Shown here piece by piece: positions 59,263 through 64,000 of a DNA stretch of 64,000 bases. The notes under the pieces are model-generated. The model searched no databases, was not told the DNA's origin, and saw nothing but the letters and a program-made list of their open reading frames with translations. How positions within the stretch are numbered: position 1 is the first letter of the stretch; each line of letters begins with the position of its first letter. The DNA comes from Streptomyces sp. CB01635 (GTDB taxonomy: Bacteria; Actinomycetota; Actinomycetes; Streptomycetales; Streptomycetaceae), in contig NZ_NNBL01000002.1 of assembly GCF_002803065.1 (NCBI RefSeq), positions 1 through 64,000 on the forward strand. The letters run 5' to 3'. The position numbers were made by a program, and so were the translations under genes.

Positions 59263-62200
59263 ATGACCAGAGGACCAGCGAGACGGAGCGCGGCCCTGCT
59301 GTCGGCCGGGCTCGCGCTCGCGCTGCTTCCGGGCGGGCAGGCCGTCGCCGGTGACACCGCCACCCCGGCGGCCCGCGCCACCACGCCCGCCGCCCGCGCC
59401 GCCCACACAGTGACCCTGGTGACCGGCGACAAGGTGACCGTCACCGACCTCGGCGGCGGGAAGAAGGCCGTCACCGTCGACCGCGCGAAGGGCGCGACCG
59501 GCGCCGTCAGGACCCAGGTGAACGACGGGAAGATCAGCGTCGTACCTGACGAGGCGCGCCCCTACCTCGCGGCCGGAACGCTGGACGCGCGGCTCTTCGA
59601 CGTGAGTGAGCTGATACGCCAGGGGCTTGCCGACAGCAAGGCCGATGCGACGCCGCTCATCGTGTCGTACGCAGGCAAGAGCGCCCGTTCCGCCGCGCGC
59701 ACCCCGAAGGGCGCCGACCGCACCCGCGGCCTCGACAGCATCGGCGGCGCCGCCCTGGACGCCGGCAAGGGCCGTACGTTCTGGAACGCCGTGACCGCCC
59801 CCGAGGGCAAGGACTTCGCCGACGGCATCGGCAAGATCTGGCTCGACGGCCGCGTCAAGGCCGACATGGCCGAGAGCAACGAGCAGATCGGTACCCCGAA
59901 GGCCTGGGAGGCCGGGCTCACCGGCAAGGGCGTCAAGGTCGCCGTCCTCGACACCGGCTACGACGCCACGCACCCCGACCTCGCGTCCCGCGTCACCGAG
60001 TCCAAGTCCTTCATCGAGGGCCAGGAGGTCGCGGACGGCAACGGCCACGGCACCCACGTCACGTCGACCGTGGGCGGCAGCGGAGCCGCCTCCGACGGCA
60101 AGGAGAAGGGCGTCGCCCCCGACGCGACCCTCGCCGTCGGCAAGGTCCTCAGCAACCAGGGATCCGGCAGCGAGTCGCAGATCATCGCCGGTATGGAGTG
60201 GGCCGCCAAGGACATCCACGCCAAGGTCGTCTCGATGAGCCTCGGTTCGTCCGAGGCGAGCGACGGCACCGACCCGATGGCCGCCGCCGTGAACTCGCTG
60301 TCCAAGGAGACCGGCGCCCTCTTCGTCATCGCCGCGGGCAACTCCGGTGCCCCCGGCTCCATCGGCTCGCCCGGCGCCGCCGACTCCGCCCTCACCATCG
60401 GCGCCGTCGACTCCGCCGACGAGGCCGCCTACTTCACCAGCAAGGGCCCCCGCTTCGGGGACAACGGGCTCAAGCCCGACCTGTCCGCGCCCGGTGTCGG
60501 CATCCTCGCCGCCCGCTCCTCGCTGGTCCCCGGCAGTGGTGCGTACACCAGCATGAGTGGTACGTCGATGGCGACGCCGCACGTCGCCGGTGTCGCGGCC
60601 CTGCTTGCCCAGAAGCACCCCGACTGGACGGGCGCGCAGCTCAAGGACGCGCTGATGTCGACGTCCAAGGAGCTCGCCGACTCCGCCTACGACCTGGGCT
60701 CGGGGCGCGTCAGCGTGCCCGACGCCGTGACCGCGGACGTCACCGCGACCGGCAGCGCCGACCTCGGCTACTACAAGTGGCCGTACGAGAGCAACAAGCC
60801 GGTCACGAAGACGGTCACCTACAGCAACTCCTCCGACAGCGCGGTGGAGCTGACGCTGACCGCGGAGGGCGCGGCCGACGGCGTCGTCTCGCTCGCCGAC
60901 AGCAAGCTGACCGTGCCGGCGCACGGCACCGCCTCCACGACCGTGACCGGTGACGGCGCCAAGGCCGCCGTCGGGAACACCAGCGGGCGCATCGTCGCGT
61001 CCGTGGCCGGAAAGCCCGTCGCGCACACGGCGTTCGGAATGGTCAAGGAGGAGGAGCGGTACACGCTCACCGTCCATGTGAAGGACCGGGACGGCGCCGC
61101 GACGGCCGCGTATCTCGGCGTGCAGCAGCTCGTCGGGAACACCGATCCGTTCCCCGCCACGGTCGGTGACTCCGGCACCCTCCAGCTGCGCCTGAAGCCC
61201 GGCTCGTACTACGTCGAGTCCTACCTCGACGTGCACGGCAGCCACGGCAAGGACTCCCTCGGACTCGGCTACCTCGCCGACCCCGAGATCAAGCTCGACC
61301 GGGACCGCGAGATCACCCTCGACGGGCGGCAGTTGAAGGAGGTCAAGGCCGACGTCGGCCGGACCACCGAGACCCGCCACCTGCTCATGGAGGCCGACCG
61401 GAAGGCGGGCGGCGCCGACTACATGAGCGCGGTCCAGCTGCCCGTCAAGTACGACAGCATCTTCGCGGCTTCCACCCACAAGGTCACCGACGGGTCCTTC
61501 GAGTACCGCACCGTGTGGCGCCTCGGGAAGCCCACGCTCCAGGTGGACGGCCTGCGCGAGGCAGTCGTCCAGCCCGGCAGCAGCCTCACCGAGGGCCGCA
61601 GCAGGCTCGCGGTCGTGGATGCCGGGGCCGGCGCGCCCGCCGACTACGCGGGCAAGAACGTGCGCGGCAGGGCCGTCCTCGTACGGCGTACCGACGCGCT
61701 CTCCCCGGCCCAGCTCGCCCAGGCCGCGCAGGACGCGGGCGTCAAGGCGCTGTTCGTCACCGACGGCGCGGCGGGCCGGCTCAACGCCTGGTTCGGCACG
61801 GACGACGACACGGACCGGCCGCTCCAGATCGCGACGGTCGACTCCGCGGACGGCGCGAAGCTCGCGGCGGACGCGAAGGCGGGCCGCAGTGTCACGATGA
61901 CGGGCACCCGCAACACGCCCTGGGTGTACGACGTCACCGACGAGCACAAGGGAGCCGTCCCGAGCGGCGACCTGACCTACCGGCCCCGCAAGTCCGACCT
62001 GGCCGTCATCGACGCCAAGTTCCATGCGGTGAAGCCCCAGGCGGGCGGCGAGTTCCGCTACTCGATCACCGACACCTTCCGCATCGGCCTCGGCTTCCTG
62101 CAGAAGATCGACTACCCGGCCGAGCGCACCGACTACGTCTCCACCGGCACCGGCCAGAAGTGGCACGAGTCCGTCCAGACGGGCCCGACCGACCTGGAGC

Positions 62201-62937
62201 AGCGCAGCGGCCTCATCACGTACAAGGGCGGCAAGCACTCCGAGCTCGACTGGTTCAAGCCGGTCTGGCACCCGTGGCTCGGCACCGGTCTCGGCTGGGG
62301 CCAGCAGCGCTCCGGCGACACCCTCCAGTTCAACGTGCCCGGCTGGGGCGACTCCGGCCCCGACCACACCGGCTTCGGCGACGTGTGGAGCGACAGCACC
62401 CAGACGCAGAACTCCGAGGTGTACGTCGACGGGGTGCTCGCGGACCGCAAGAAGAGCTCCGCCGTGTACGTGTGGGACGCCGACCCGGCCGAGCACACCT
62501 ACAAGGTCGTCACCGACACGACGCTCGATGCCGCGCGCTGGAAGCTGGCCACGAAGGGCCACTCGGAGTGGACGTTCAAGTCTGCCGAGACCCCCGACGA
62601 CCGGTGGACGTTCCTGCCGCTGCTCAACCTCGGCTTCGACGTGGACACCGACCTCGCGGGCAACGTGCGCGGCGGACACCGGGTCTCCGTCGGGATCAGC
62701 TCCGAGTACGTCAAGGGCGCCCCGGACACCGGGAAGATCGGCGGCGGCACCCTCGAGGCCTCGTACGACGACGGCAAGACCTGGACGAAGGTCGCGCTCG
62801 ACGGGCACGGCGCGTCCTGGAAGGGCACGCTGAAGGTGCCGGGCGACGCGCAGTACGTGTCCCTGCGCGCCTCGGCGAGCGACGACCGGGGCGGCAAGGT
62901 CACTCAGGAGATCATCCGGGCGGTGGGGGTCAAGTAA
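59263..62937 (+). CDS. Large secreted subtilase (S8 family serine peptidase)
   Basis: The 1224-residue protein has a Sec signal peptide (residues 1-29), a propeptide to about 205, and an S8 domain with the full catalytic triad: Asp230 in VAVLDTGYDATHPDL, His262 in NGHGTHV and Ser435 in SGTSMATPHVAG. After the peptidase come beta-rich domains, among them a PA-like insert near 790-840 (GRAVLVRRTDALSP), and a long C-terminal region without a recognised fold, ending in strands that resemble Ig-like modules. AGAGAGG lies upstream of the ATG. It would degrade extracellular proteins. A terminator follows; the divergent gene encodes a trypsin-co-occurring-domain protein. Confidence 0.93.
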   Translation: MTRGPARRSAALLSAGLALALLPGGQAVAGDTATPAARATTPAARAAHTVTLVTGDKVTVTDLGGGKKAVTVDRAKGATGAVRTQVNDGKISVVPDEARPYLAAGTLDARLFDVSELIRQGLADSKADATPLIVSYAGKSARSAARTPKGADRTRGLDSIGGAALDAGKGRTFWNAVTAPEGKDFADGIGKIWLDGRVKADMAESNEQIGTPKAWEAGLTGKGVKVAVLDTGYDATHPDLASRVTESKSFIEGQEVADGNGHGTHVTSTVGGSGAASDGKEKGVAPDATLAVGKVLSNQGSGSESQIIAGMEWAAKDIHAKVVSMSLGSSEASDGTDPMAAAVNSLSKETGALFVIAAGNSGAPGSIGSPGAADSALTIGAVDSADEAAYFTSKGPRFGDNGLKPDLSAPGVGILAARSSLVPGSGAYTSMSGTSMATPHVAGVAALLAQKHPDWTGAQLKDALMSTSKELADSAYDLGSGRVSVPDAVTADVTATGSADLGYYKWPYESNKPVTKTVTYSNSSDSAVELTLTAEGAADGVVSLADSKLTVPAHGTASTTVTGDGAKAAVGNTSGRIVASVAGKPVAHTAFGMVKEEERYTLTVHVKDRDGAATAAYLGVQQLVGNTDPFPATVGDSGTLQLRLKPGSYYVESYLDVHGSHGKDSLGLGYLADPEIKLDRDREITLDGRQLKEVKADVGRTTETRHLLMEADRKAGGADYMSAVQLPVKYDSIFAASTHKVTDGSFEYRTVWRLGKPTLQVDGLREAVVQPGSSLTEGRSRLAVVDAGAGAPADYAGKNVRGRAVLVRRTDALSPAQLAQAAQDAGVKALFVTDGAAGRLNAWFGTDDDTDRPLQIATVDSADGAKLAADAKAGRSVTMTGTRNTPWVYDVTDEHKGAVPSGDLTYRPRKSDLAVIDAKFHAVKPQAGGEFRYSITDTFRIGLGFLQKIDYPAERTDYVSTGTGQKWHESVQTGPTDLEQRSGLITYKGGKHSELDWFKPVWHPWLGTGLGWGQQRSGDTLQFNVPGWGDSGPDHTGFGDVWSDSTQTQNSEVYVDGVLADRKKSSAVYVWDADPAEHTYKVVTDTTLDAARWKLATKGHSEWTFKSAETPDDRWTFLPLLNLGFDVDTDLAGNVRGGHRVSVGISSEYVKGAPDTGKIGGGTLEASYDDGKTWTKVALDGHGASWKGTLKVPGDAQYVSLRASASDDRGGKVTQEIIRAVGVK

Positions 62938-63081: not shown

Positions 63082-63117
63082 TTGTGGGTGCGCGGTGGCC
63101 GCGGGCAGGATGCGTCC
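63082..63117 (+). promoter_or_regulatory. Leaderless promoter of the leader peptide
   Basis: TTGTGG (63082-63087) and CAGGAT (63106-63111), 18 bases apart, place transcription start at the ATG at 63118. No ribosome-binding site precedes it. Confidence 0.5.
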
Positions 63118-63228
63118 ATGGCTCCGGTACTCGTCTCGCGCGTGCTCGTCTCGCGCCGCCACGTGGATCTTCTGCGTGTGTCGACGATGCTCTGTCCGGC
63201 CGCACCCGGCACCGACGCCCTTTCCTGA
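63118..63228 (+). CDS. Short regulatory leader peptide (HVDL-type)
   Basis: This 36-residue open frame contains VSRRHVDLLRVSTMLCP, the form of the putative leader peptides annotated in Streptomyces (Arg-rich start, HVDLLRV, then a Cys). I recall these upstream of sulfur and cysteine-linked genes. Here it is followed after 110 bases by a monooxygenase of the sulfonate-degrading type. The ATG has a -10 like CAGGAT six bases upstream, so translation is probably leaderless. The Cys codon near the end suggests ribosome stalling when cysteine is short, which would control a downstream hairpin. The VLVSR motif is duplicated at residues 4-8 and 9-13. Confidence 0.7.
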   Translation: MAPVLVSRVLVSRRHVDLLRVSTMLCPAAPGTDALS

Positions 63229-63236
63229 GGCCGCGC

Positions 63237-63262
63237 CGGGGAGGCATCCCCTCGCCCGGCCC
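63237..63262 (+). promoter_or_regulatory. Candidate attenuator hairpin after the leader peptide
   Basis: Within 40 bases of the leader stop, GGGGA-GGCA-TCCCC forms a short hairpin, and the flanking GCCGGG and CCCGGC can extend or replace it. This is the kind of alternative pairing expected of an attenuator, but no T run follows, so a translational mechanism is equally possible. Confidence 0.4.
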
Positions 63263-63338
63263 GCCCGCGTCCCGTGTCCTGAAGGCCGGTTCGCTCCCGC
63301 AGTAGTCCACGCCCCCGCGCGATTCCCGAGGTGTCGTC

Positions 63339-64000
63339 ATGCCCGAGAACCACCCTCTGCTGCACTGGTACCTGCCGGCCCGCCGGCCCGCCGACATCGA
63401 CTCGCTGGCTCCCACGGCCCTGGCCGCGGAGCGCGCCGGGTTCGACTCGCTCTCGATCCCGGCCGGCGGCCCCGACCCGTGGGCGCTCGCGTCCGGGCTC
63501 TGTCGCCACACCGAGCGGATCGGCTTCCTCGTCGCCCTGCCCACCGGGAGCGCGGGCCCCACCGTCATCGCCCAACAGGCCGACGCCTTCCGCCGGTTCG
63601 CGGGCGGCCGTCTGAGGCTCGATGTCGGCGCGCACGGCGCCGGGCTGACCCATGACCAGCGCTACGGGCGCACCGACGAGGTGATGGCCGTCGTGCGAGA
63701 CCTGCTCGACGGCCGGCGCATCGACTTCCAGGGGGAGCATGTGCAGGTCGAGGGCGCCCAGCTGAGCGATCCGGCCGTCGAGCATCCGGTGCCGCTCTAC
63801 TTCGGGGGCGAGTCCCCGGACGCCGACGGCATCGCGGCCCGGCGGGCCGATGTGCGGCTGGTGAGGAGCGCGCCGCCCGCTGTCGTCGCGGAGCGTATCG
63901 CCCGCTCGCGGGACCGGAATCCGCGGCTGCGGTACGGGCTCCGCCTGCGCCTGGTGGGTCGAAGCGAGGCGTCCGAGGCGCGGGACGCGGCGGGCCGGAT
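63339..64000 (+). CDS. LLM class flavin-dependent monooxygenase (SsuD-like), partial
   Basis: The frame runs off the right edge after about 220 residues. The visible part has the N-terminal strand LLHWYLPARRPADIDSLAP, GFDSLSIPAGG, IGFLVALPTG and FAGGRLRLDVGAHG, the bacterial luciferase-like barrel with an alkanesulfonate monooxygenase flavour (R-x-G-R-L pattern). SsuD-type enzymes desulfonate organosulfonates for sulfur nutrition. The ATG at 63339 follows CCGAGGTG. The short HVDL leader peptide upstream supports a sulfur-regulated role. The substrate is uncertain, and F420-dependent relatives share this fold. Confidence 0.8.
   Translation, partial: MPENHPLLHWYLPARRPADIDSLAPTALAAERAGFDSLSIPAGGPDPWALASGLCRHTERIGFLVALPTGSAGPTVIAQQADAFRRFAGGRLRLDVGAHGAGLTHDQRYGRTDEVMAVVRDLLDGRRIDFQGEHVQVEGAQLSDPAVEHPVPLYFGGESPDADGIAARRADVRLVRSAPPAVVAERIARSRDRNPRLRYGLRLRLVGRSEASEARDAAGR

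Follow-up and report, generated by a model that had tools for sequence, protein, structure and literature searches.

In TnaC-type arrest peptides, certain residues are conserved and keep a constant spacing to the codon at which the ribosome stalls. The leaders analysed here, called HVDL leaders after their motif, resemble these peptides in their fixed spacing and in that four members have a stop codon at the critical position, nine codons after the motif Asp (D+9). They differ in the signal proposed for them, which is the supply of Cys-tRNA and not a free ligand, and their arrest is a prediction.

Attenuation by cysteine was put forward by Shell et al. (2015; PMC4633059), and Canestrari et al. 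(2020) are reported to have found, in M. smegmatis, leaderless short ORFs rich in Cys codons that attenuate in response to cysteine. As described in work citing that paper, these ORFs resemble the leader predicted in this study, being short ORFs of leaderless type with Cys codons upstream of sulfur genes, but they contain a run of Cys codons, whereas the present leader has a single one. Seliverstov et al. (2005; PMC1262725) predicted Cys leader peptides upstream of mycobacterial cys operons, found no terminators and suggested Rho; the leaders predicted for cys operons of mycobacteria, P. acnes and B. longum have Cys codons near the stop and no terminator, as here, while Streptomyces copies and the HVDL motif were not found in the excerpts of that paper. 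In Rhodobacterales, uORFC-8-2 upstream of cysS is a Cys-codon attenuator, as is proposed for the present leader, but according to the available extracts it has two tandem Cys codons, predominantly UGC, and an intrinsic terminator (PMC8632094). As the cysS leader uses mostly UGC, sensing of cysteine as such does not need UGU. For S. lividans, a -10 element of TAnnnT, 17% leaderless transcripts and eight leader peptides have been described, none of them given as cysteine-dependent in the portions of the paper drawn on here (PMC8079986).

The leader under study lies in a stretch of 64,000 nucleotides of Streptomyces sp. CB01635 (hereafter the window). An ATG frame of 36 codons followed by TGA (MAPVLVSRVLVSRRHVDLLRVSTMLCPAAPGTDALS; 63118..63228, forward strand, as are all features below unless stated) ends 110 nt upstream of the ATG (63339) of a luciferase-like monooxygenase gene, just as an earlier note on this sequence had it. 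A Peptidase_S8 subtilase gene on the same strand (1224 aa, 59263-62937) ends 180 nt upstream of the leader. The frame holds VSRRHVDLLRV and one Cys codon, the pattern by which it had been recognised as a putative leader peptide, and this recognition is supported by a family-wide alignment and by NCBIfam model NF042934 ('putative leader peptide', cis_reg_atten), which matches the 36-aa product with 25.5 bits (E 7.4e-6), 1.5 bits short of its curated cut-off (27 bits); in the genome-wide profile search the score was 23.6 bits. The leader has R-x-H-[VI]-D-L-x-R, a Cys at Asp+9 and a position upstream of a gene as a short ORF, which is the feature list derived for the NF042934 family in this analysis from 207 aligned leaders. 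The model itself shows the same motif, concerns residues and is silent on the UGU codon described below. The NCBIfam models of the Cys-rich M. smegmatis leaders Ms4527A and Ms5788A gave 19.7 and 15.2 bits with the window leader, under their 45-bit cut-off, and Pfam gave no match for it. The sole Rfam match (mir-921, minus strand, E 0.3) was dismissed as spurious.

Within the leader, the motif R-R-H-V-D-L-L-R (63154..63177; Asp codon 63166-63168) is followed at Asp+9 by the Cys codon UGU (63193..63195), the predicted stall codon, which is present in all ten window-type leaders. Between the ATG and the motif, an in-frame tandem repeat (63127..63156) encodes VLVSR twice, a duplication common among orthologues to the window, L034 and L035 only; it indicates that the length of the N-terminal part is free and the spacing from motif to Cys is not. 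Scanning of named genome contigs yielded 17 orthologous loci of the downstream gene, and a leader was present in the 500 nt upstream in 16 of them (nine of window type, seven of Kitasatospora type). The peptide is conserved at these loci; the earlier note had made its reading depend on conservation in relatives. Three genomes among 61 relatives encode a close homologue (E<=1e-50), with the leader seen only in the window's own genome. Of the 17 codons between D-7 and D+9 in the ten window-type leaders, eight differ by synonymous changes alone, five are invariant and four show residue changes.

The downstream gene (63339..64000, continuing to 64211 beyond the window; Pfam, NCBIfam and ORF list) encodes 290 aa and is preceded by a Shine-Dalgarno (SD)-like GAGG (63328..63331). 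It had been assigned to the sulfonate-degrading type. The 220 aa inside the window score 131.1 bits with the SsuD model TIGR03565, against a cut-off of 518.2, and the full 290 aa match only Bac_luciferase in the Pfam scan; these results make it an SsuD-related luciferase-like monooxygenase and do not support membership of SsuD itself. In the ORF list, the next long gene-like frames 3' of this gene are on the opposite strand.

A leaderless start had been proposed for the leader from the placing of its -10 element, and comparison supports this prediction. The -10-like CAGGAT (63106..63111) is located 6 nt upstream of the leader ATG, and a -35-like TTGTGG (63082..63087) 18 nt upstream of the -10. 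All nine window-type orthologous leaders (L034 and L035 and, from a comparison that chose the best of several starts per leader, L036, L038, L040, L045, L047, L048 and L050) had CAGGAT, CAAGAT or CACGAT at the identical 6 nt spacing, and TTGTGG, TTGTCG, TTGTCC or similar was seen at the -35-like place in several orthologues. A sigma-70 consensus scan showed no promoter-like site at the leader start region. Measured in the fairer way, from the nearest in-frame ATG or GTG, NANNNT occurs 6 or 7 nt upstream of the start in 102 of 206 leaders compared with 6.3% for other spacings, and an SD-like element precedes the start in 22 of the 206. Leaderless starts are thus supported, on these sequence grounds, for leaders throughout the family.

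Searching the window's genome with NF042934 gave 36 matches at E<=10, of which 12 exceed the cut-off and 16 have E<=1e-3; 23 of the best 24 were examined (C1:212153 was left out) and 20 were kept as leaders. Matches were found in 15 of 198 genomes of a phylum sample (E<=1e-3) and in 192 of 296 genomes, representing 77 of 114 genera, of a class sample (E<=5e-4), with none in 14 control genomes of the latter search. Genomes of the same genus have 3 to 14 HVDL-type leaders each at E<=5e-4.

The genes downstream were scanned for 19 of the 20 kept leaders of the window's genome (all except the gene after C9:113388). Eight are clear sulfur or cysteine genes (cysO-cysM, sulfatase, ssuE-ssuD, sir/nir, sfnB, ssuC, rhodanese and cysteine dioxygenase type), five are flavin or luciferase-like oxidoreductases, among which the window's own gene is counted, and six are others or have no match. 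Best matches include cysO-like with cysteine synthase, sulfatase, two NtaA/DmoA-type monooxygenases, ssuE-ssuD, sir/nir, sfnB and ssuC, of which SsuE and cysteine synthase (cysKM) alone exceed their curated cut-offs. GST_C, PAP2, rhodanese, cysteine dioxygenase type, an NMT1-type binding protein, FMN reductase, flavin reductase, SDF symporter and ROK were also matched, and one gene has no match. The tie to sulfur supply, drawn earlier from the monooxygenase gene, is in this way supported by the family as a whole. At least seven HVDL-type leaders occur within about 35 kb of one contig of this genome (G000:C9, about 85000-128000; L053-L055), adjoining monooxygenase, sfnB, FMN reductase and transporter genes; this cluster is likely to be a sulfur-scavenging island.

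Leaders were aligned on the motif Asp (D0) using 107 rows from the window's genome, the phylum sample and the orthologues, and 107 from the class sample (81 places from the best matches listed, plus 26 loci). Removal of duplicates and of five rows left 207 unique leaders, which mix orthologues and paralogues and are not independent. The five rows were C9:85145 (17.7 bits, YVDLARV, Arg at D+9), C1:668324, C7:121355 and G112 (no motif), together with the poly-Cys leader G153:C23, which has Gly where the motif Asp is expected and TGT at the place equivalent to D+9. As the Asp anchor missed this last leader, the presence of Asp in 207/207 holds partly by construction. The codon at D+9 is TGT in 199 leaders, TGC in two, TGA in three and TAG, GGG and AGC in one each, so that UGU is used by 199 of the 201 leaders with Cys at this position. 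Cys codons elsewhere have another composition, with TGC 147 and TGT 23 from D-7 to D+8, TGC 62 and TGT 39 on the 3' side of D+9, and TGC 174 and TGT 41 in the downstream genes. The rule holds in 60 of 61 single-Cys leaders, in 13 of 14 poly-Cys rows and in all seven Kitasatospora-type leaders, in which the Cys at D+5 is TGT in four and TGC in three. A pyrimidine comes directly after UGU in 184 of 199 cases, and codons beginning with G number two at D+10 versus 54 at D+11.

The motif shows a different kind of constraint. Arg at D+3 is invariant (207/207) and written as CGC 122, CGT 35, CGG 30, AGG 16, CGA 3 and AGA 1; Arg at D-4 is found in 206 leaders with five codons; Leu at D+1 is found in 204, and the motif Leu is likewise written with varied synonymous codons. 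All 207 leaders have Val, Ile or Met at D-1, and D-2 is His in 150 and Ala in 53. Since the Arg and Leu codons vary synonymously and UGU at D+9 is all but fixed, selection acts at the peptide level within the motif and at the codon level for the Cys. The combination suggests a stall that joins a nascent chain with a slow codon and would report the supply of Cys-tRNA. Stalling at Arg, His or Cys codons had been considered for this class: the alignment singles out Cys, and speaks against Arg, given its varied codons, and against His, which is replaced by Ala in 53 of 207. The literature searched gave no mention of the UGU rule, although Canestrari et al. (2020) or D'Halluin (2023) may mention it. 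The window leader is a genuine leader of a known kind and follows this family-wide codon rule; the stall, the signal and the output are predictions.

The rule has one group of exceptions. All six leaders grouped upstream of a GST_C-type gene (G000:C9:94443 (L053), G218:C2:85366, G239:C28:10012, G185:C1:1355838, G250:C1:6969491 and G394:C12:120730) are Cys-less at D+9, where they have TGA, TAG, TGA, TGA, GGG and AGC, and they keep HIDL-x-RV-x-SA despite this loss. These leaders may either be relics or indicate that a different slow step, for example termination, can serve the motif as well.

The tRNA reading gave two tRNA-Cys genes, both with anticodon GCA; it covered 46 loci and all but seven of the 67 matches, six of the seven being long and one not called by ARAGORN. 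With GCA as the only anticodon found, UGU would be read by G-U wobble. The two genes (L254:1611-1684 and L284:100-172) are quite different in sequence, and the lower-scoring second one (60.8 bits) may have been acquired recently. Both have A36-A37-A38 in the loop, which we take to be the recognition motif of MiaA, and MiaB is encoded with a score over its cut-off. A speculative and rather doubtful extension is that HVDL leaders form a class-wide sulfur sensor reading one wobble codon: decoding of UGU by tRNA-Cys(GCA) would fall when Cys-tRNA is scarce, and also when shortage of sulfur or Fe-S leaves A37 lacking the methylthio modification (MiaB, ms2i6A); this slow step would be turned into a locked ribosome by the HVDL nascent chain.

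We consider it somewhat probable that the window leader, with R-x-H-V-D-L-x-R, a UGU nine codons after the Asp and a likely leaderless start, is a switch that turns on the monooxygenase gene through a predicted stall at UGU when cysteine is short; for the family, ribosomes would likely stall at UGU under such shortage and so switch on sulfur-scavenging genes. The short leader gene would be translated from a leaderless mRNA until UGU enters the ribosomal A site. The motif would by then occupy the upper exit tunnel, about 5 to 12 residues back from the P site, and may slow or lock the ribosome there. The wobble at UGU and the usual pyrimidine after it would slow decoding to the point where a drop in Cys-tRNA is reported, and the parked ribosome would cover the next 15 nt or so. 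Against this explanation stand the score under the NF042934 cut-off, the uneven SD pairing described below and two further observations. Cysteine sensing leaves the six Cys-less GST_C-group leaders unexplained, and the leader of the cysteine dioxygenase-type gene has the same layout, for which induction on cysteine shortage has the wrong sign. This latter leader (L061, G000:C1:43260, with relatives) has a conserved W-R-R-V-H-M-D-L, and for an enzyme that breaks down cysteine the direction of control to be expected is hard to understand.

As regards the output, a small hairpin after the leader stop (GGGGA-GGCA-TCCCC, 63238..63251) had been taken for an attenuator. The hairpin exists, but among nine aligned window-type leaders it occurs only in the window and its close relative L034 and is thus not conserved. 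The leader region folds no better than shuffles (z -0.32 and +0.29), and no intrinsic terminator or antiterminator was found in the window. A trp-type transcription attenuator was rejected on the same fold values and the lack of a terminator-like site. Of the earlier note, the ORF, the motif and the -10 placement are confirmed, the reading as a leaderless leader peptide tied to sulfur is supported by the family, and the attenuator hairpin is not supported.

A candidate for the output is the stretch of 15 nt following UGU that a parked ribosome would cover (63196..63210), which duplex calculation marks as a possible partner of the SD; its complementarity to the downstream SD in some gene groups implies that parking would free the SD, a form of translation attenuation. 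Among 174 leaders with a recognisable downstream start, these 15 nt favour their own over swapped SDs (z -6.1, kinship ignored). With one leader per peptide cluster (24) the preference is weak (p 0.07, 0.36, 0.01, 0.05 and 0.14 in five draws), and 20 of 31 groups show it when leaders are sorted by downstream gene (p 0.022), a test in which none of four other segments is significant. Swaps within groups gave z -4.5 for DUF4395 (control segments -3.5 and +0.7), -2.5 for sir, -2.1 for the cysteine dioxygenase and flavin reductase group, -0.3 for rhodanese and +1.4 for cysO. Pairing is clearest upstream of DUF4395 genes, where different sequences keep pairing, and of cysteine dioxygenase-type genes, where most of the copies listed have CCGUCCUG in the leader as the complement of CAGGACGG at the SD. 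Consensus folds of the cysteine dioxygenase group also pair the segment after UGU with the SD, and no structure common to groups was found among the folds listed. In the window, the duplex with its own SD has -14.5 kcal/mol, with 5-9% of swapped pairs equal or better (21 nt from UGU), and its gene group shows no excess of own-SD pairing in within-group swaps (z +0.4). A single SD-masking rule for all members is not supported, the preference being weak by cluster and absent for cysO, rhodanese and the window's group. Freeing of the SD by a parked ribosome is the inferred output for some gene groups, and a candidate for the window's gene.

The stall could also arise from scarce Cys-tRNA alone, UGU being a slow wobble codon and the motif residues irrelevant. 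Cysteine attenuators without such a motif are known, for instance the mostly UGC cysS leader of Rhodobacterales (PMC8632094, as excerpted), and mycobacterial members of the family bear runs of Cys codons; yet the motif preserves its residues while their synonymous codons vary freely, has a fixed spacing to UGU, and persists in leaders that lost the Cys codon, which makes this simpler account unlikely. A comparably low probability is given to Rho-dependent, tnaC-like attenuation, in which a stall near the leader end would hide a C-rich Rho loading region beginning at the stop, and in the absence of a stall Rho would end transcription before the gene. Over 29 gene groups, the skew of C over G after the leader stop is 0.23, compared with 0.01 ahead of the promoter (p 4e-9) and 0.13 within the gene (p 0.004), Rho is encoded (main rho at C3) and the window has no terminator that could be found; Rho was also proposed for mycobacterial cys leaders, though called weak in the passages of that paper used here (Seliverstov et al. 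2005; PMC1262725). In the window, however, the skew is just 0.12 to 0.15, C-richness has other causes, and the SD pairing seen with other gene groups favours control of translation. A second Rho-like gene (G000:C13:11993-13078) scores 495 bits, under the 509-bit cut-off.

That UGU is fixed for a reason at the RNA level, as a UGU-Y cleavage or protein-binding site, and not for its decoding, would fit the C or T that follows it in 184 of 199 leaders, by which the constraint extends past the codon; we hold it to be very unlikely, because every such UGU stands in frame at D+9 of a peptide conserved in its residues, and because its pairing with the downstream SD is rarer than in swapped pairs (bases 27-29 are paired in 24-33% of own and 38-44% of swapped pairs, which also disfavours fixation through SD pairing). 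Residue-level conservation would fit a small protein that functions in trans and has no part in regulating the next gene, but this is barely credible for a peptide that lies upstream of one and the same gene at 16 of 17 orthologous loci, precedes many different genes per genome and is constrained at codon level.

If the predicted stall at UGU is preferred, the annotation 'putative leader peptide' becomes a hypothesis with a named stall codon, and one likely mechanism would serve the 3 to 14 leaders of each same-genus genome. A codon rule of 199/201 beside a residue motif predicts that a synonymous change of UGU to UGC would alter regulation, a rare and directly testable prediction, and natural variants with a stop, Ser or Gly at D+9 are available for testing the role of the stall.
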